Below are positions 4,640 through 47,439 of a stretch of DNA of 51,989 bases, in pieces. The stretch comes from a virus. Under the pieces are notes generated by a model. That model was not told the DNA's origin, made no database searches, and saw nothing but the letters and a program-made list of their open reading frames with translations. The stretch is taken from positions 1 to 51,989 of IMG/VR virus record IMGVR_UViG_3300033388_002889; one strand, written 5' to 3'. A program made the translations under genes and the position numbers. Position 1 is the stretch's first letter, and each line of letters opens with the position of its first letter.

Positions 4640-5028
4640 AAAATTAGCCCTTTCAAAAGTTTAAAGGTTGTTAGTAATTTGTTAAGTGGTTGTGTGTCGT
4701 CTAAAATACTCTTGAGGTGGTCGGGACAATCTGTAGAGTACATCGCCACTAAGACAATCAACACAGCTATTTGAATCCTCAATCGACGTTTTTCTTGAGA
4801 CTGTAGCTTTTGAATAGCTTTATTCATTGTGTCAAATCTACCTTCACCGACCTTTAAAGCTTTCGCATGAAACGACAATCCTTTATCTACTGATTCCTTC
4901 CTGTAACTATCTTCTAACTCAGTTATTTCTTTTTGGTGAGCGTGTACGACTACTAACTCATCAATACGCCTATTGATTTTACTGTGTGCAAGTTCGCACG
5001 TTTTCGGATCATACTCTGCGTCGGACAT
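4636..5028 (-). CDS. Coiled-coil protein with one membrane segment
   Basis: A 130-residue protein. Residues 1-90 are highly charged and helical (coiled-coil-like). One hydrophobic segment, IQIAVLIVLVAMYS (about residues 95-108), is followed by a short amphipathic tail. AAAGGAG lies just before the ATG. The gene overlaps the receiver-domain gene by 20 bases. A cytoplasmic coiled coil ahead of a single transmembrane helix would suit a holin, a spanin-like protein or a membrane adaptor for the receiver protein. None of these is proven. The family is not recognised. Confidence 0.55.
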   Translation of the reverse strand: MSDAEYDPKTCELAHSKINRRIDELVVVHAHQKEITELEDSYRKESVDKGLSFHAKALKVGEGRFDTMNKAIQKLQSQEKRRLRIQIAVLIVLVAMYSTDCPDHLKSILDDTQPLNKLLTTFKLLKGLIL

Positions 5029-5446
5029 TCTGCAATCTCCTTTCTAGTTCACGCTTCCGGTAAACAATGTCAGACCATTGTGTAACGAGCCTGGTGAATT
5101 CCTGAACAAAATCCTCAGAATGTTTATCTATCCAACCAACACCACCGGAGACTGTTGCTACCATCCTACTAGTAGAACTGCAACTACTGGAGTAGTACAG
5201 AATCACAATCTTAGGGTATTTTTTCAGGACGTCAACACCGATCAAAAACCCATTTTCTCTACCTAGACAAACATCCAACAATAGAATATCTGTAGGATGA
5301 TTTTCCAAAATCTCCCATAACTGCTCAGAGTTCCTAGGGCAGTGCACATTGTCTGCTGACAGTTGTAAGTTATTATACAACACATCACAGGCAATATCTA
5401 CATCTTTCTCCAAATCATCACAAACAACTATCACTATATCTTTCAT
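5009..5446 (-). CDS. CheY-like response-regulator receiver domain protein
   Basis: A 145-residue protein with every signature residue of an active receiver: the acidic pair D10/D11 after VIVVC, the phosphoacceptor D58 in ILLLDVCLG, Ser86 after the IVILYYS strand (the Thr/Ser position), and Lys108 in WIDKHSED. About 25 charged residues after the domain form a short helix; there is no DNA-binding or enzymatic output domain. In bacteria such proteins take phosphate from a histidine kinase. Here the gene sits inside the tail operon, overlapping a distal-tail gene on one side and a coiled-coil membrane gene on the other. The fold call is strong; the role is unknown. Confidence 0.8.
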   Translation of the reverse strand: MKDIVIVVCDDLEKDVDIACDVLYNNLQLSADNVHCPRNSEQLWEILENHPTDILLLDVCLGRENGFLIGVDVLKKYPKIVILYYSSSCSSTSRMVATVSGGVGWIDKHSEDFVQEFTRLVTQWSDIVYRKRELERRLQNVRRRV

Positions 5447-5808
5447 TGTTTCGCTGCCATGAAATCTAAGGTTAGTTTTTTAAAGTTCTTACCTGACTCA
5501 CTACTGAAAGGGTTATTTAAAAACACACCATGATAAACATTACCACTATAATCTATTAACTCAACTAAATTATCGTCAGCAACACTGTACAATAAATGTT
5601 TTAGTAGATTTAATTCTCTCTGAGTCAGATTCTCAAATGTTAATAGGATTTTATTATCTACACTTGAGTCAACATAACTATACATATCTGCGTTCATTGT
5701 GACGTGGTACTTAACATCATGATCCACGTGTTCCACGTCTCGCAACCTAGGGTTAGGTAGCTGAATACTTATAGTGCTAGATACGTTGGGGTAATTTAGT
5801 GTTATCAT
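5443..5808 (-). CDS. Distal tail-like protein 2
   Basis: A 121-residue protein of mostly beta character. It resembles the protein at 6290-6658 in length and plan: an N-terminal PNPRLRDVEHVDHDV versus PSPELDDVEEF segment, a central helix before ELIDYSGNVYHGVFLNNP versus TTTDHDGIVRTGYIVPN, and a closing strand KLTLDFMAA versus EVNLKFIAN. The two are probably diverged paralogues flanking the papain-like peptidase. The position after the tape measure suggests a distal tail or tail-tip component. It overlaps both neighbours by 4 bases. Confidence 0.55.
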   Translation of the reverse strand: MITLNYPNVSSTISIQLPNPRLRDVEHVDHDVKYHVTMNADMYSYVDSSVDNKILLTFENLTQRELNLLKHLLYSVADDNLVELIDYSGNVYHGVFLNNPFSSESGKNFKKLTLDFMAAKQ

Positions 5809-6290
5809 ACTTGATCAGTCGTAAGTAACGTTGCTCCCATAGCCTGAATCAGACAAACAAACATCTCAGGGCTAATGTGGAAAGGTTTGACACTCGTAAG
5901 TTTCTTTATCTCTACAAGAGGCTTGATAGCCATTTCAGAACAAAACATCTTTGATTCAACATCCTTAGTACGCTTCAACAAGAATCCCAAGATGCCCCAC
6001 CAATCATATTTAACTTTATCTTCGGCCATCTGAGTCCACGCGTCCACACAGTAACTGTACTCTTTCGTGGGAACGGAAAGTCCCCATATCTCATACTGTG
6101 TACCTGGTTTGTGTGAGTTAAAATCTGAGTAGTCTATCCACGACTTCATAGATTTACCGTGCGGCCACGCTTCAATAAGCCTACCATCCACTAAGATAGC
6201 AATGTGGCTATACTTACTTGATCTGGTGTGAAACTTAATAAGCTTGCTGGCTATTGACTTACCCTCAAAAGCTACGAATCGTAATAACAT
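5805..6290 (-). CDS. Permuted papain-like cysteine peptidase/amidase of the tail tip
   Basis: A 161-residue protein. A histidine lies early, in SKYSHIAILVDGRLIEAW (about residues 26-43), and the candidate catalytic cysteine lies late, in SKMFCSEMAIK. This His-then-Cys order is the circularly permuted NlpC/P60 (YiiX/YebB-like) arrangement. Such enzymes cleave peptidoglycan cross-links or other amides. The place between two distal-tail genes, as with NlpC/P60 proteins in many siphophages, suggests a tail-tip enzyme that opens the cell wall at infection. It overlaps its neighbours by 1-4 bases. Confidence 0.65.
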   Translation of the reverse strand: MLLRFVAFEGKSIASKLIKFHTRSSKYSHIAILVDGRLIEAWPHGKSMKSWIDYSDFNSHKPGTQYEIWGLSVPTKEYSYCVDAWTQMAEDKVKYDWWGILGFLLKRTKDVESKMFCSEMAIKPLVEIKKLTSVKPFHISPEMFVCLIQAMGATLLTTDQV

Positions 6291-12100: not shown

Positions 12101-12703
12101 TTAAGTTGTTGTGGTCGTTGTTGTGGTTGATGTGGTTGATGTTGATATTGATGTTGTGGTTGATGACTGTGTGGCACGTACCACAGTAGCCTGAGTAACA
12201 TTACAACGCCCAGATGTAGCTATAGTCCCTGCACGAAGATCATGGTCAAGAGACTCATAGCGATAATCACTGAGTGTGATTATTTCTGAATCTCCACAAT
12301 CCCAAGGTGTCGGGAAGTACTCTACGACAATATCGACAGCGTAAGGGCGGCACTGATCTTCATCAGTAGAGATCCAGTCAGAAGCCTCACCAGTCTTTTT
12401 CATGGCTTCTTCGACTGTCGGAGTGCCTGATCCAGAAGACGCCTTAATGTAATCCCAAAGAAAATCGAGGCTTACATCCACAGGTACTTCATCACCCTCA
12501 CGTACCTCGTCCAACCTGCCACGATCCAGAGTGTACTCAATAGTGCGTTTTTCTGAGTACGTTAAGTTACCTTCACCGATTTTCACAGTCAACGACTTAG
12601 GTGTGCCTGAGCCGTCGTTGATCTTGATGTAGGCATTTTTTAAATCAATCTGGGCGAAGACCGACACCCACACTGCGCCCAAAATACCGTTAAGTTTTTT
12701 CAT
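12101..12703 (-). CDS. Major tail (tube) protein with Thr/Ser C-terminal tail
   Basis: A 200-residue protein directly upstream of the tail chaperones, the normal place for the tail tube protein. The body is beta-rich, with acidic loops and patterns such as RTIEYTLDRGRLDEVREGDE and VPVDVSLDFLWDYIKAS, as seen in other tube proteins. It begins MKKLNGILGAVWVSVFAQ, a peptide shared with scaffold and capsid. The last 20 residues are almost only Thr and Ser. The ATG is preceded by AGAGGTAACA, the same leader as the capsid gene. A stable hairpin follows the stop. Confidence 0.75.
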   Translation of the reverse strand: MKKLNGILGAVWVSVFAQIDLKNAYIKINDGSGTPKSLTVKIGEGNLTYSEKRTIEYTLDRGRLDEVREGDEVPVDVSLDFLWDYIKASSGSGTPTVEEAMKKTGEASDWISTDEDQCRPYAVDIVVEYFPTPWDCGDSEIITLSDYRYESLDHDLRAGTIATSGRCNVTQATVVRATQSSTTTSISTSTTSTTTTTTTT

Positions 12704-12713
12704 CTGTTACCTC

Positions 12714-13163
12714 TTAAGTTGTTAATTCAGCTCGATACTTACCGTCCACGGTAGCTTGCATTAGCTCCTTGGATGGTTCAAGTTGGCCAAAATGATTTAC
12801 CAGAACATCTTTGCCTCTAGAGACAGGAACGATATTCATGCATGTGAGCAAGTTTCCACTATCACCGTACTCATAGATTTTAACACCTGTGAAAGCTTTT
12901 ATGACATCTCCGATGTTCCGATGAATCTTGTGGAAGTCTCCTGTGATTGTGGACGTTATCAGGATATTGACCTCAACCTCCGCTGTCCAGAAGCCTTTAC
13001 TCGTGTTACTGTAATGCGGACCATCCATACGAAATTCACAAAAATCTAACATTGTTTTTGTGGATCGATGTTGCCCTTCAATAAACACATGTAATGAAAT
13101 GTTTTCACTAAAGTGCTTACTGAGAGAAGCAAATATCCATCTAGACCAATTTTCATTAATCAT
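12714..13163 (-). CDS. Tail completion/neck protein
   Basis: A 149-residue protein between the neck protein and tail tube, the usual place of a tail terminator. It starts MINENWSRWIFASLSKHFSE and has an alternating beta pattern (TAEVEVNILITSTITGDFHK). No Shine-Dalgarno sequence precedes the ATG: the upstream 60 bases are the Thr/Ser-coding repeat of the previous gene, whose TGA overlaps this ATG. Translation is therefore probably coupled. The exact neck role is inferred from order. Confidence 0.55.
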   Translation of the reverse strand: MINENWSRWIFASLSKHFSENISLHVFIEGQHRSTKTMLDFCEFRMDGPHYSNTSKGFWTAEVEVNILITSTITGDFHKIHRNIGDVIKAFTGVKIYEYGDSGNLLTCMNIVPVSRGKDVLVNHFGQLEPSKELMQATVDGKYRAELTT

Positions 13164-13642
13164 GTCGTTGTGGTCGATGTTGAGGTTGACGTTGAGGTCG
13201 ATGTTGAGGTTGTTGTTAAAGTGACATACGAGTCAATGGACTCTGCCACAATCAAGAGACTTTTACTATCTGCGGTTAATGTTTTTGCCCGGATAGTGTA
13301 CATTCGATTCTCAAATTTAATGTGGTCTTCAATTTCAACTGCACCACGAATATCCTTGAGGTCGATGATTATTACTCGGTTTGATACATTAAAAATCCCA
13401 CCGTACGTAAAGTTCTTGTTAGCCGCAATAAAAGATAGGTCGTAAACAAAATCTCTGATCTCTTGGGCAGGTAATACAATAGCTCTTCGAATACGTAAAT
13501 TGATGTAGGACTCAGTACTCAACCCTGTCTCCAAATTGTGCACATTCCCAGTAGACTGGAAGATCACAATAGGTTGACCGTACTGCCTTTTCAGACGGTA
13601 GATAACGTTAGTTAACTGTTTTAAATTATTCTGAAAAGGCAT
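13160..13642 (-). CDS. Head-tail connector/neck protein with Thr-Ser C-terminal tail
   Basis: A 160-residue protein right after the capsid gene. The body (residues 1-140) is beta-rich (SNRVIIIDLKDIRGAVEIED, KFENRMYTIRAKTL), compatible with a head-closure or stopper protein. The last 20 residues are Thr/Ser only. In the repeat the codons vary (ACC TCA ACA TCG...), so the Thr-Ser pattern is kept at protein level. The stop overlaps the next ATG. Confidence 0.55.
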   Translation of the reverse strand: MPFQNNLKQLTNVIYRLKRQYGQPIVIFQSTGNVHNLETGLSTESYINLRIRRAIVLPAQEIRDFVYDLSFIAANKNFTYGGIFNVSNRVIIIDLKDIRGAVEIEDHIKFENRMYTIRAKTLTADSKSLLIVAESIDSYVTLTTTSTSTSTSTSTSTTTT

Positions 13643-13657
13643 TACGGTCTCCTTAGG

Positions 13658-15034
13658 TTAGCCGAGCAACATGCAGCCGAGGTCAGTGTTAAGAATCTTG
13701 ATACCGCACAATAGGTCGACAGTTACAAGATGGCCTTGTTTTGCTCCATCGTATGTGATTGTGACACGTACTGCCAGACCCTTGTAATCGGCAACAAAGG
13801 ACAGTGCTCCCGTTCCTGCTGCCGGCATGGCCAGAGGTCTTGTGACCAGGGCAATGGCGTTACGGTGGAAAGCGAAAGAGAACTCACCTGCGGGGCCGAT
13901 TCCGAGAACATCGGCATTTGCCACTGCATTAACCAATGGGCGATCCAACAAGATACCTGTCGTGGTTGGTGTGGACAATGCGCCGTACACAGGAGTTGTA
14001 ATTCCAAAAGAAGCCAACTGGCCAACTTTAGGTGCCACAGAAAAACCATTAACTACCAACTCTTTACTGTAATCGGCTGCGTAACCTGCACCAAAATTGA
14101 CTGCTCCAGGTGTGACCAATGTCACAACAGCACCATCGACTACGTCGTGACGGAGACCTGGTAAGCAAACGATCTCGGTAGGTGTTGAACCGCCTGTGGT
14201 AGACTGTACCTGTTGAGGTGTCATGTCGCCAGCAACAGTGAACCATGTTCCTGGTGAAATAGCAGCAGACAAGCCATCCACAGTCAATGTTCCAGAGCCA
14301 GCCGTGATGTTACCGTTATTGATTGCGCCTGTGACGACAGTGTTACCAGCGGCAACACTGGGCACGTTCTGGCTCATGAAAAAGTTGAAGCCCATCTTGC
14401 GGCCAAGGTGGCCTTCTCTCATCGCTGTACCATCATCACCGATTTTATCGGCGGTGGTAAAGTCAGCGATCTCCAAGACGGCTCCCTCGGAGTTAGGTGT
14501 CAACAGGCAATTTCTACCAGCCAAAGGTACCTTGTTTGTGTTCATGCGCTCTTTCAAGGCTATGATCGTCGTCTTAGTAGGGTCTGTGCCTAATTTACCA
14601 ACAGTGTTTGATAAGAACCCATAGGCCTGATTGAGGACAATCTCATCCAAACCCTGAGCAATGGACAGGACAGCAGGAGTCAAATACTCCTCACGCAGAC
14701 TCTTGAATCCTTTTGACTCTTCACCATCCTTAATTAAAAAACTTGCGTGCAGATGCTGATCGAGCTTGACTGGAACGTTGGTCGCTGACGCGTCCTGCAC
14801 AGTCACTTCGTCAGCATCAGTTTTACGTTTCATGGTGAACGTTCCAGGTTGGCGAGTGTTAACGACATCACCAAACTGCTGGATTTCATCCTCAAAGTCA
14901 CGATGAACCAGATTCGCCGCAATGGTATTTGCTTCCAACACCATGAGTGATTCTTGTGCCCAAACCTCAGGAATGAAAGCATCGTTGTCGTTTGCGAACA
15001 CGGATAAAAAGATTGTTGCTAATTTCTTGGACAT
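13658..15034 (-). CDS. Major capsid protein, P22 coat-like
   Basis: A 458-residue protein. After the shared leader MSKKLATIFLSVFAND it reads FIPEVWAQESLMVLEANTIA, NLVHRDFEDEIQQFGDVV and NTRQPGTFTMKRKTDADEVT, a strong match to the P22 gp5-like coat family (HK97 fold). A Gly/Thr-rich insertion near residues 210-330 is the region where P22 coat carries its extra I-domain. Scaffold lies just upstream and neck genes just downstream. The start is chosen by AGAGGTAACAC before the ATG. Confidence 0.88.
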   Translation of the reverse strand: MSKKLATIFLSVFANDNDAFIPEVWAQESLMVLEANTIAANLVHRDFEDEIQQFGDVVNTRQPGTFTMKRKTDADEVTVQDASATNVPVKLDQHLHASFLIKDGEESKGFKSLREEYLTPAVLSIAQGLDEIVLNQAYGFLSNTVGKLGTDPTKTTIIALKERMNTNKVPLAGRNCLLTPNSEGAVLEIADFTTADKIGDDGTAMREGHLGRKMGFNFFMSQNVPSVAAGNTVVTGAINNGNITAGSGTLTVDGLSAAISPGTWFTVAGDMTPQQVQSTTGGSTPTEIVCLPGLRHDVVDGAVVTLVTPGAVNFGAGYAADYSKELVVNGFSVAPKVGQLASFGITTPVYGALSTPTTTGILLDRPLVNAVANADVLGIGPAGEFSFAFHRNAIALVTRPLAMPAAGTGALSFVADYKGLAVRVTITYDGAKQGHLVTVDLLCGIKILNTDLGCMLLG

Positions 15035-15045
15035 GTGTTACCTCT

Positions 15046-15816
15046 CTAGATTTTACCCTCTTTACGTGCCTTTCGGTACGCAACTGGGTCTTTTGCTGTT
15101 TTACGAACGTCGACACTACCACCACTCTGATGATTATATCCTCCAACACCACCTGAGCCTTCAAACACAAAAAGATTTTGGTACTTCTCAATCTCTTTCA
15201 TGCGTTTCACAGCCTCAGTAACAGAAATACTTAACGTGATTGACTTACCGTCTTTATCTACGTCATTAAATTTTACCTGAGGAACAAGGTTACCTGTCGG
15301 CTCACCCTGATCATCGGTAGCCTCAATAAGCTGAGTAGTAGGCTGTAAAATAGCCACAATTTGCTCTGGTGAAAAAGCTTTGTGCGTAGCAGATGCATCT
15401 GTGATTGATCTCACGATAGTAGAAACAGTAAATTTACTCTTCCAATCATCTCGGTCAGTAGTGAGTGTAGTCAACTCCTTCTGATGATCAGTTTTGAGTT
15501 TCTGTTTCTCTTTTTTAGACAGCTCTTCCTTTGTGAGCAAATCATTTTTCATGGTGTCGATTCGGGTCTCAAGCTCACCGCGCTCTTTATCATTGAGATT
15601 AGTGCGTGTCTTGAGTGTCTCAAGCTCATCAATAGCAGCCTGAGTTTTTACCAAATGCGCCTTTTTATCTTTTGCAAGCATGGTATTAACTTGCTCCTGA
15701 GTAAAGGTTGTTTCACCACCGTCACCACCGTCACCACCGTCACCACCGTCACCACCGTCACCACCGTCATCATCAAAAACACTGAGCCAAACTGTTGCTA
15801 AAATACATTTTTTCAT
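15046..15816 (-). CDS. Scaffold-like protein with Gly-Gly-Asp repeat
   Basis: A 256-residue protein immediately upstream of the capsid gene. It begins MKKCILATVWLSVFD (shared leader), then a (GlyGlyAsp)n linker to about residue 35, then a long Lys/Glu/Thr-rich coiled coil (about 40-135), then a compact C-terminal part. Charged helical proteins in this slot are scaffolds. The very basic C-terminus (DVRKTAKDPVAYRKARKEGK) fits a coat-binding tail. AAGGAG precedes the ATG. No protease motif is evident. Confidence 0.7.
   Translation of the reverse strand: MKKCILATVWLSVFDDDGGDGGDGGDGGDGGDGGETTFTQEQVNTMLAKDKKAHLVKTQAAIDELETLKTRTNLNDKERGELETRIDTMKNDLLTKEELSKKEKQKLKTDHQKELTTLTTDRDDWKSKFTVSTIVRSITDASATHKAFSPEQIVAILQPTTQLIEATDDQGEPTGNLVPQVKFNDVDKDGKSITLSISVTEAVKRMKEIEKYQNLFVFEGSGGVGGYNHQSGGSVDVRKTAKDPVAYRKARKEGKI
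15719..15768. repeat. 9-bp tandem repeat (ACCACCGTC)n in the scaffold gene
   Basis: Five to six near-perfect copies of ACCACCGTC on the plus strand encode the Gly-Gly-Asp run of the scaffold protein. It is a slippage-prone array, and length variation would keep the frame. Confidence 0.9.
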
Positions 15817-42989: not shown

Positions 42990-43483
42990 ATCAATCTCCG
43001 TAGTTCCTTTTTAAGGTAGTTGATTTTGTTACCTACCCAATACTTACTGTTCCACTGTTGTGGCCAGACAATAGATTTACCTCCTTTTAACCTAAAGTGT
43101 AGACAATTTTTATCTGAATCATCTATTAGTAACGCATCTTTGTGGGAACAAAAATCTTTTCTATTACCCATCAAGTAATCAATATTTGGGTAGTGACATT
43201 TTAACCAAAGGTACTTACCGTTGTGGCCTGTAGACCCTGGGTCAGTCAAGATGCAAATATCGAACCCACGAAGAGTTTCAAAAATACTGTCTGCATCATG
43301 AGTCTTTGTTAGACCTAGCCAAAATGCTTCATCAAGACTTTTCCAAAAACTGGGGCCTACACGTAACACTTTATTTAAATCGTACTCACCTTTAGGCCAT
43401 TCATCTACTTGTTTACCACAATGATTCATCGCGCCGGTAACGAAGTCAACAATGACCCCGTCCATGTCTAGGAAGATTTTCAC
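42986..43483 (-). CDS. HAD-family nucleotidase (5'(3')-deoxyribonucleotidase-like)
   Basis: A 165-residue protein. Motif I DMDGVIVDF (residues 6-14) is the HAD aspartate pair; ILTDPG is motif II with a Thr; KDALLIDDSDKN is motif III/IV with the acidic pair. The phage pattern matches 5'(3')-deoxyribonucleotidase-like proteins, which dephosphorylate nucleotides. It overlaps both neighbours. Confidence 0.75.
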   Translation of the reverse strand: MKIFLDMDGVIVDFVTGAMNHCGKQVDEWPKGEYDLNKVLRVGPSFWKSLDEAFWLGLTKTHDADSIFETLRGFDICILTDPGSTGHNGKYLWLKCHYPNIDYLMGNRKDFCSHKDALLIDDSDKNCLHFRLKGGKSIVWPQQWNSKYWVGNKINYLKKELRRLI

Positions 43484-43983
43484 TTTAATCTCCTCACTAA
43501 TGAAGATAATTTATTACTGACAGTGGTGTGGGAAAGACTTAATTGCATACCAATCTCAATTAGGGTATAGCCTTCCACCCGTAACTTTAAAATATCTTGC
43601 TCTACCTGGGTCATGCGAAGGGTCTTAATTAAATCAGATTCTGCAAAAGGATTTACTTCTGGTACGTGGGCTTTTAGTCCTACTAAAGACTTGTACTTAT
43701 AGCGCTCTTGTCCTCTGGGACACTGTACTAGACAATCCTTATGTAACGTGTCTTGAATAGTGCCAGTGATTGTGACCCAAATAAAGGATTTAAGATTTTT
43801 GTGTGCTGGGGGATTGTTTTTGATTCTGTTAACAGCTAGAGTGATTCCCTCATATGCTGCTGAGATAATAATATCTTTCTTTTGTGGTACTGTTGCTATG
43901 TAAGGTTGTGCTGCTTTGTGAGCAAAATTTAAGTGTTTTAGGATTATATCATTGCTTTTTAGGTTGTTAAAATCATCTACCAT
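43480..43983 (-). CDS. Sigma-70-like transcription factor
   Basis: A 167-residue protein. Residues about 30-85 look like sigma region 2 (KKDIIISAAYEGITLAVNRI and LKSFIWVTITGTIQDTLHKD). Residues about 118-165 are a region 4 helix-turn-helix: MTQVEQDILKLRVEGYTLIE, then IGMQLSLSHTTVSNKLSSLV. This is the two-domain plan of small ECF-like sigma factors. It could direct host RNA polymerase to late phage promoters. The gene is preceded by 124 bases of non-coding DNA with a palindrome, so it probably has its own promoter. Confidence 0.72.
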   Translation of the reverse strand: MVDDFNNLKSNDIILKHLNFAHKAAQPYIATVPQKKDIIISAAYEGITLAVNRIKNNPPAHKNLKSFIWVTITGTIQDTLHKDCLVQCPRGQERYKYKSLVGLKAHVPEVNPFAESDLIKTLRMTQVEQDILKLRVEGYTLIEIGMQLSLSHTTVSNKLSSLVRRLK

Positions 43984-44107: not shown

Positions 44108-44554
44108 TCAAATCAATAACCAGATAGTTTGTATATGGAATTGATCTAAAGGATACACCGATCCGTTTGGGTCGAACACCTCTTTACCAGACCAAGCACA
44201 AGCATGGCCCGCACCAGATTTGTTTTGGCCAATCAAGATACCTCGTCGACCAATAATGTAGTACTCAAATCTCTTTCGTGCGTTATCGTAAATCGTGCGA
44301 GACTCAACCTCCAGGTTAGGTGCGATAGTGGGCCACAAATCAATAGGTACTAGCGCCCTGTTCTTACTGAGTACAAAATCAATAATTTCTTGAATGTGGA
44401 CACCTCTAAAGCGACTATTTCCTTTAAGATCAGGCCACCAAATCTCAAGACCGTTATGCCCTAGGGTGTCTGTTATCTCTTTTGGTTCAACATCTAAGAC
44501 CATTGCCGTTGAATACACTAAGCACTCTGGGTTAGTCTGTTTTAGTAATCTCAT
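44108..44554 (-). CDS. Papain-like (C39-like) cysteine peptidase fold protein
   Basis: A 148-residue protein from ATG 44554 (GGAGGGAAA upstream). It begins MRLLKQTNPECLVYSTAMVL, with a candidate catalytic Cys early, then SGAGHACAWSGKEVFDPNGS with the His, and Asp-Pro-Asn at the expected third site. This Cys, His, Asp order is that of C39/papain-like proteases. Its function in phages is open; host-takeover proteolysis is one guess. Confidence 0.6.
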   Translation of the reverse strand: MRLLKQTNPECLVYSTAMVLDVEPKEITDTLGHNGLEIWWPDLKGNSRFRGVHIQEIIDFVLSKNRALVPIDLWPTIAPNLEVESRTIYDNARKRFEYYIIGRRGILIGQNKSGAGHACAWSGKEVFDPNGSVYPLDQFHIQTIWLLI

Positions 44555-44783
44555 TTTCCCTCCAAGGTACACCTAAGTTGCCATTGATAAAATTTAATGC
44601 TTCTTTCTCCGTGGGTAAGATTTTAACCTGGCCTAGTCTTAACCTTGTCTTTAACCTTAGTTGCTCGACCCAACAATCAACATGTCGAGCATTCGACTCA
44701 GATGCCATTGTTAGACCCATAGACGCTGGCTTTTTTACAGCACAAGGATCTGTAATTGGTAGTCCACAGGTTGAGCAAATCAT
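44532..44783 (-). CDS. Zinc-finger small protein
   Basis: An 83-residue protein: MICSTCGLPITDPC followed by HVDCW, a CxxC...C...HxxC zinc site, then a basic helix. It overlaps the peptidase start (23 bases) and the NYN stop (4 bases). Function unknown. Confidence 0.55.
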   Translation of the reverse strand: MICSTCGLPITDPCAVKKPASMGLTMASESNARHVDCWVEQLRLKTRLRLGQVKILPTEKEALNFINGNLGVPWRENEITKTD

Positions 44784-45238
44784 AACAACAACCCGTCAAA
44801 AATCTCAATCGAACTGTTGGCAGACCGTTTCAGATCGTTCGAAAGTAGGCAACCAATAACAATAACCTCTTTACCTTGACTACGCACATGATTCACTAAA
44901 GGCACATAGTCACCATCTGCCGAACCAAGTACCAGTGTGTCGAAATTATGCAGTTGATTCATTGCGTCAACAGTTAACCCTACGTCCCAATCAGCTTTCC
45001 TTTTTTTACCATAGACTTTTGGTTCCTTAAATCTTGTTTTAAAACCTAGATTCTCCAGGTTAAAGATGAATTCTCTCGCAGCACCATTGACTTGTGACCC
45101 GTATGCGACCATTGTGACAATGTCACCTAATTGTTTCACGAAATCCACATACTTCACATAATCAATTTTCTTGGTGTGTACGGAGCCTACACAGTAGTAA
45201 AGGTTACTTAAATCTACAAACAGCCCTATTCGTTTCAT
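44780..45238 (-). CDS. NYN domain (LabA/DUF88-like) putative RNase
   Basis: A 152-residue protein with the NYN acidic set: FVDLSNLYY (Asp9 and Asn12), KADWDVGLTVDAM (two Asp), and LVLGSADGDYVPLV (Asp pair). These make up the PIN-like metal site. NYN proteins cut RNA. It overlaps the VRR-NUC gene by 4 bases, so the two are co-made. Confidence 0.82.
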   Translation of the reverse strand: MKRIGLFVDLSNLYYCVGSVHTKKIDYVKYVDFVKQLGDIVTMVAYGSQVNGAAREFIFNLENLGFKTRFKEPKVYGKKRKADWDVGLTVDAMNQLHNFDTLVLGSADGDYVPLVNHVRSQGKEVIVIGCLLSNDLKRSANSSIEIFDGLLL

Positions 45239-46757: not shown

Positions 46758-47439
46758 TTAATTTACTCCTTTTGAATAGTATTGGTCTTTTAGCGGAAAT
46801 TAATGTTTTACGTAACTTCGTTAAAGCTTTATTCAACAACAATACCTCACGGTGCTCACCGAAATCAGAACCCCAAGCCTTGTACCGTTTCCAGACATCG
46901 TCAGGTAACAGTTCTTTGATATCGCTAACACTCCTGTACTTAGTATTGTGAACATTTGTCACCCACGCATACCCTTCAAGGATCAAAGACTCATTCAGTG
47001 AGGAGATTTCAGGAAGCAGATAATCCTCGGTAGGCAGTTTCATGTCAGGGAAAAATTGTAACATGTCGTTGACTAGTATTTTTATAGTGTCAATCATCTG
47101 GTCAACATCGATGGTCTGAACCACTTTGTTTTCAGGTTCCTTTTGCAGTGCTTGCAGCAGACCTAACTTATCTAGTCGTGAATAATTAGGTACGCGTTTC
47201 TTACTAGCCAGTTCACGTAATCGTCTTACAGACATCTCACCTAGTTCGTGTGTTGGGTGGTCTTTTACCCAGGTATCTAAGGCGGTTCTGTCACGTTGTT
47301 TAATTATTGATTTAATTGCTTTGAGTTGTTCCTCACTAGAACTCTTACACAACAAATCAAAAGACGCTGAATTTATTAACGTCTCGATGTTACGTAAATT
47401 CAGTATGTCTGCATGTAAGTCTTCTTTGATCTTTTCCAT
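46717..47439 (-). CDS. Rho N-terminal/SAP-like domain protein
   Basis: A 240-residue protein. Residues about 64-98 (HELGEMSVRRLRELASKKRV, then NYSRLDKLGLLQALQ) match the Rho-N helix-extended-helix, a nucleic-acid-binding module. The rest is helical. AAGGAGAAGTC precedes the ATG. It lies directly downstream of the polymerase block, so DNA binding at replication is plausible. Confidence 0.65.
   Translation of the reverse strand: MEKIKEDLHADILNLRNIETLINSASFDLLCKSSSEEQLKAIKSIIKQRDRTALDTWVKDHPTHELGEMSVRRLRELASKKRVPNYSRLDKLGLLQALQKEPENKVVQTIDVDQMIDTIKILVNDMLQFFPDMKLPTEDYLLPEISSLNESLILEGYAWVTNVHNTKYRSVSDIKELLPDDVWKRYKAWGSDFGEHREVLLLNKALTKLRKTLISAKRPILFKRSKLNVRLEKIKCTSTS

Follow-up and report, generated by a model that had tools for sequence, protein, structure and literature searches.

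The window analysed here comprises positions 1-51,989 of the IMG/VR virus record IMGVR_UViG_3300033388_002889, in which the scaffold protein, the major capsid protein (MCP) and the presumed tail tube protein share an N-terminal peptide (..VWLSVF, ..IFLSVF and ..VWVSVF, respectively), referred to below as the leader. The scaffold gene (15046-15816, minus strand, as are all genes of the window discussed here) opens with MKKCILATVWLSVF|DDDGG, the MCP gene (13658-15034) with MSKKLATIFLSVF|ANDND, and the tube gene (12101-12703) with MKKLNGILGAVWVSVF|AQIDLK, the bar marking the end of the leader. A purine-rich Shine-Dalgarno-like stretch is found 5' of all three ATGs (AAGGAGACAATT, GAGAGGTAACAC and AAGAGGTAACAG), and therefore the annotated starts look right. 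When every plausible gene start in the window was scored with the MCP leader, the scaffold reached 35 and the tube 27, compared with a 99.95% level of 24 and a maximum of 25 for a null set of gene starts from 20 other contigs; the window has no fourth leader-bearing gene. The three N-termini are as given by an earlier, sequence-only reading of the window, which had described the shared peptide.

The scaffold leader proper (15775-15816) is followed by a DDDGGDGG linker, and the rest of the gene (15046-15774) encodes the Asp/Gly linker and the scaffold domain, which matches PHROG family phrog_206 (head scaffolding, E 3e-10). The MCP leader (14996-15034), supported by its covariation with the scaffold leader in 87 genomes, precedes A-NDNDAFIPE, and the match of the P22-coat-like MCP body (13658-14995) to phrog_283 (major head protein, E 6e-67) starts at residue 14, directly after the leader. 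The AlphaFold model of the MCP is poor (predicted local distance difference test, pLDDT, 56; leader below 50) and, because of this low value, uninformative, except that the leader is possibly flexible. The tube leader (12656-12703) precedes A-QIDLK; the presumed tube body (12101-12655) had no PHROG match, and its identity rests on gene order and the family alignment. It ends in a Thr/Ser-rich, low-complexity tail (TSTSTSTTTT, 12101-12170) that is missing from the relatives in the tube alignment, and a tail of the same kind (TTSTTTTTTTT, 13160-13225) ends a 160-aa open reading frame.

Relatives were collected from IMG/VR, at first 14 and later more than 100 distinct loci. In the first 14, the same genes carry a leader and each phage has its own version of it, and in a set of about 100 genomes, the leaders of one genome resemble each other and differ from those of other genomes (for example, SYQIKWVG, RxRxWYG, DARPIAH or YYSLICF). 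Thus, one genome (L009) has SYQIKWVG, SYQIKWIG and YEIKWVG, another (L007) KVWYSVY, KVWRSVY and RVWYSVY, and a third (L014) VIRQAYF and MIRQAYF; most leaders are 8-20 residues long. In 84 distinct genomes, the mean score of the scaffold leader was 32.5 against the MCP leader of its own genome and 16.3 against foreign ones, the best of 20,000 shuffles reaching 19.8, and a control comparison of scaffold starts with the starts of MCP bodies showed no effect (own 14.4, other 14.6).

The leader is not confined to the three proteins that carry it in the window. Six virion proteins are leadered in contig G008, namely, the portal (RSRYWYG), scaffold (RHRGWYG), MCP (RARRWFG), tube (RTREWFG), tape measure (IRKWYG) and fibre (RNRIWYG), and leaders are also present on the portals of L020, L040 and L060 and on the tape measure of L092. 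High copy number, which the sequence-only reading had offered as the common factor, is therefore not what defines the carriers. Fibre-like proteins at L257:1708(-) and L263:2985(-) (GTKAELDGITLAAGELGFTTD) likewise open with the leader of their own phage, RNRIWYG or RIRNWYG. Two 91-aa paralogues without known function lie in tandem in contig G001 (L161:6238 and L161:6557) and carry the leader of that contig (ATPVATSY and ATSFASSF; MCP, GTPFATSF), which suggests that these proteins may be processed as well and are perhaps virion proteins. The scaffold of L082 starts with what appears to be a tandem duplicate of leader and linker (AFRTCYEDADG AFRTCYEDADG). A literature search retrieved no description of a phage-specific leader common to virion proteins. 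The nearest cultured MCPs are about 22-33% identical, and no leader was present on the three cultured relatives that were checked. An MCP profile search of host genome contigs found no relative, and hence no host is named.

At matching residues of scaffold and MCP leaders, identical codons are used in 46% of the cases, compared with 44% expected from codon usage (386 positions, all genomes), and thus the leaders are constrained as protein and are not DNA copies. The sequence-only reading had concluded the same from the synonymous codons in the window, which do differ as it claimed. Covariation was quantified by comparing the per-position identity inside genomes with that in shuffled genomes, positions being counted outwards from the bar (P1, P2 and so on in the leader, P1' onward in the body). 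For scaffold and MCP (87 genomes), the identity at P1 was 87%, compared with 32% after shuffling, and covariation was highest at P1-P3 (z about 15), although the scaffold register had been picked to maximise P1-P7, so that the values at those positions are inflated. The signal was strong at P1, P2, P3 and P5, weaker at P4 and P6-P9, tapered to about P11 and was zero from P1' onward. For tube and MCP, with the register fixed independently from the tube body, z was 7.6-9.2 at P1-P3 and -0.4 at P1'. The usual leader motif is [KR]-[IVP]-[WF]-x-[PT]-V-[YF] followed by A, D or E; P1 is Tyr or Phe in most genomes and Gly in about 6%, and P2 is mostly Val or Ala. Covariation that ends sharply at one bond looks like the pattern expected of a peptidase that reads the non-prime side of its substrates.

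The same bond is singled out by leaderless relatives. Cultured leaderless MCP relatives start with MANTLEA, VANTFLT or MSNNLL, leaderless MCPs of the family with MANSLDAY, MANDLDAF or MANNNDAL, and leaderless tubes with MAQIDLK or similar. The leader is positioned between Met and ancestral residue 2; it replaces the Met, and therefore a cut at the edge of covariation would restore the leaderless N-terminus. This favours the cleaved propeptide, one of the options that the sequence-only reading had listed. A tree of 123 MCP bodies requires seven changes to explain the leaderless state of the MCP, at least five of them on supported branches, which amounts to five or more losses or gains of the MCP leader. 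In L181, L188, L124, L311 and L309/L312, the leader is missing from the scaffold as well, together with the flexible linker, whereas leadered scaffolds bear the peptide on a long flexible linker that is acidic and Gly- or Ala-rich. The sequence-only reading had named close relatives that lack the peptide in two of the three genes as evidence against it. Relatives without the peptide do exist, and the fully leaderless ones miss the scaffold and MCP leaders jointly; in the two that could be tested, a peptidase gene is missing too.

Clustering of the genes on the relatives' contigs yielded a conserved small protein that resembles papain/C39 peptidases and is encoded in the window at 44108-44554. 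This candidate leader peptidase (148 aa; C11, H117 and D128 counted from Met), proposed from alignment, structural model, Foldseek and co-occurrence, is flanked by two genes that serve as synteny anchors, upstream by that for an NYN-domain protein (44780-45238; PF01936, E 1e-29) and downstream by that for a sigma-r4/GerE-like regulator (43480-43983; PF00196, E 1.5e-6). The columns C, A, H, D and P are invariant in 15 divergent members; in two further members (G004 and G037), the catalytic Asp is Asn, and Cys and His are kept throughout. The AlphaFold model (pLDDT 97), in which the Cys opens the first helix, shows a predicted papain-type fold and a Cys-His-Asp triad, and its Foldseek matches comprise staphopains (E 1e-4), the C39 domains of PCAT1 and ComA (template-modelling score about 0.5-0.6) and a phage protein annotated 'Peptidase C39'. 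None of the 15 members had a Pfam match, there was no sequence match in the PDB, the window peptidase had no PHROG match, and among cultured phages, searches with three C39 queries found nothing credible. Contig G037 (112 kb) contains two C39-like genes (46890-47342 and 68014-68466), of which the better-matching copy is the one with Asn in place of the catalytic Asp.

Two other types of protease were considered. No S78 prohead protease (PF04586) was found in 30 contigs, with positive controls detected. A protein encoded after the tape measure (5805-6290) looks like a permuted papain by eye (H first, FCSE late) and has no Pfam match; it was rejected as a partner of the leaders, as it is not conserved in relatives. 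Also beside the tail genes, the product of 5009-5446 has a weak match to response-regulator receivers (PF00072, E 1e-6, just under the cut-off).

The occurrence of the peptidase gene follows that of the leader. The gene order NYN-C39-sigma was found in 15 leadered contigs. According to clustering and protein searches, the peptidase is present in all 19 NYN-bearing contigs with an MCP leader (in one of them, G035, it is uncertain whether the leader is shared with the scaffold), and it is present in neither of the two leaderless NYN-bearing contigs, G044 and G047 (Fisher's exact test, about 0.005 or 1 in 210, post hoc). Three leadered contigs without the peptidase (G011, G014 and G040) are uninformative because the NYN and sigma genes are missing there too. 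Of the 18 core families scored, leaderless G044 (73 kb) contains 16, among them polA, NYN, sigma, ligase and terminase; it has no C39 gene, and only a 60-aa open reading frame lies between NYN and sigma. The second family that it lacks (f18029) is absent from two leadered contigs, G000 and G030, as well. C39 is alone among the 18 core families in being kept in every leadered contig spanning the region and missing in G044. In leaderless G047, polA, VRR-NUC and NYN are present and C39 is missing, and the two leaderless contigs are placed apart on the MCP tree. In a forward test, contig G048 was found via its C39 gene alone, and its scaffold (NYYSLICF|EGD), MCP (NYYSLICF|DND) and tube (QTICF|APIDLK) turned out to be leadered. 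Finally, in Mantel tests the leader distance tracks the C39 distance (rho 0.50) and tracks neither the MCP-body distance (0.02) nor the tube bodies. The leaders thus travel with the replication module and not with the proteins that bear them.

We therefore favour, with a probability of roughly 0.68, the reading that the leader is a removable propeptide that marks the virion proteins of one phage and is most likely processed by the phage's own papain/C39-like peptidase; both the cut of this bond by this enzyme and its purpose are our inference. The peptidase would recognise the 7-11 residues before the cut, in the window approximately L-A-T-[VI]-[WF]-L-S-V-F, and cleavage would fall after the aromatic residue. 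The exposed N-termini would be those of the leaderless relatives after removal of Met, that is, A-NDxDAF for the MCP and A-QIDLK for the tube, and the acidic linker in the case of the scaffold. Because one enzyme must accept all leaders of its own phage, these would stay alike within a genome, and enzyme and leaders would drift together between genomes. The least certain step is the use of such a system, which might be that the leaders keep head and tail proteins assembly-incompetent or bound to the scaffold until the peptidase frees them.

Several points weigh against this reading. Its cleavage step was deduced by comparing sequences, and the residue at P1, mostly Tyr or Phe, differs from the Gly-Gly that is typical of classical C39 substrates. 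No more than two leaderless genomes were available for scoring, and the link to C39 was spotted after about 18 core families had been compared. The peptidase gene sits in the replication module, apart from the structural genes, and the leader distance tracks polA (0.62), NYN (0.65) and the replication gene p46720 (0.64) at least as well as it tracks C39; as other replication genes perform equally, the test does not single out C39 as the gene with which the leaders coevolve. In 16 leadered genomes, scaffold and MCP agree weakly or have ambiguous starts, and no cultured member of the leader family was found in the collections searched. In L180/L288, L282/L287 and possibly L284, a leader-like start is present on the scaffold only and the MCP is leaderless; the scaffold starts seen in such cases are IWTPVY|GED and LLVWAG|DGEG.

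Among the alternatives, the best placed, although in our judgement unlikely, is that the leader stays uncut and serves as a docking tag by which all assembling virion proteins bind one partner from phage or host (a chaperone, an assembly site or one another), with the pocket of the partner coevolving. This would account for sharing within a genome and change between genomes, and the flexible linker that is present on leadered scaffolds and missing from fully leaderless ones would fit a displayed binding motif. Yet covariation ends at the very bond that restores the leaderless N-terminus, and in MCP, tube, portal, tape measure and fibre the leader adjoins the body without a spacer, which a binding tag would not have to do; in addition, the gene missing from leaderless genomes resembles a peptidase with an active site. 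Less probable still is removal of the leader by another protease, of the host or an unrecognised one of the phage, the C39-like gene being linked by chance or otherwise employed. The tracking of other replication-module genes, the small number of testable leaderless genomes and the distance of C39 from its presumed substrates would all agree with this explanation, but the lack of an S78 protease in the 30 contigs, the unique distribution of C39 among the 18 core families and the correct prediction of the G048 leaders by a search that began with C39 argue against it.

Signal or membrane-targeting sequences, the other option raised by the sequence-only reading, are a very improbable explanation of the leaders. 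The leaders of the window are indeed basic and then hydrophobic, but in relatives polar, charged or very short leaders are frequent, with no hydrophobic core in common (RTREWFG, SYQIKWVG, DARPIAH and RTLR), so that, by inspection, the features of Sec signals (a basic n-region, a hydrophobic core of at least seven residues and a conserved type of cut site) are missing in them. They are neither basic-hydrophobic nor alike and nevertheless agree within each genome, and a general export signal would not need a residue-by-residue match confined to one genome. The idea that the leaders are functionless recent DNA duplications or gene-conversion tracts has next to nothing left, since, although a few pairs (for example, in L009 and L010) are still similar as DNA, the codon test refutes DNA-level copying for the set as a whole and the leaders persist in about 100 divergent genomes.

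Beyond the single window, we regard it as somewhat better than even, and slightly less secure than the reading of the leader as a propeptide, that a large family of tailed phages matures both head and tail by way of short phage-specific leaders acquired by unrelated structural proteins, all removed by one papain/C39-like peptidase of the replication module, with leaders and enzyme changing together. If this is true, new proteins could be tagged merely by gaining a short N-terminus. The approximately 100 genomes represent a natural collection of different leader specificities, and in uncultured phages, virion proteins could readily be identified by nothing more than their leadered starts.

Phage maturation proteases have so far been studied mainly on the head. 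In the giant Salmonella phage SPN3US, gp245 has eight substrates with N-terminal propeptides, and the protease has been shown to act on head proteins (PMC10052503). With prohead proteases such as SPN3US gp245 and T4 gp21, the proposed system would share the use of one phage protease for several substrates, including the portal, the N-terminal propeptides and a common short motif before the cut. It differs from them in that the tagged proteins extend to tube, tape measure and fibre, the motif varies by phage, most leaders have 8-20 residues, and a small cysteine peptidase of papain/C39-like type is the candidate enzyme; an S78-type protease near the portal and capsid genes was not found in the 30 contigs. 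A papain/C39-type peptidase that acts on portal, scaffold, capsid, tube, tape measure and fibre would, if confirmed, be a second, independent solution to virion maturation.

The C39 peptidases of double-glycine leaders provide a second comparison, as LahT150 reads the leader to about -12, tolerates variation on the P' side and has substrates that share a leader type (PMC6363468). The candidate resembles PCAT1, ComA and LahT150 in its predicted papain-type fold with Cys, His and Asp. However, classical C39 substrates end with Gly-Gly, Gly-Ala or Gly-Ser, in contrast to the predominant Tyr or Phe at P1, and the classical enzyme forms the N-terminal domain of an ABC exporter, whereas the candidate is a stand-alone protein of about 148 aa encoded between the NYN and sigma genes. 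The presumed substrates are also of a different kind, namely, virion proteins, and the candidate has no sequence match to the C39 family model. In virus polyproteins, several products are released by one enzyme and the cut sites drift together, as would the leaders described here; in the phages, however, the products are encoded by separate genes, each with an N-terminal site of its own.

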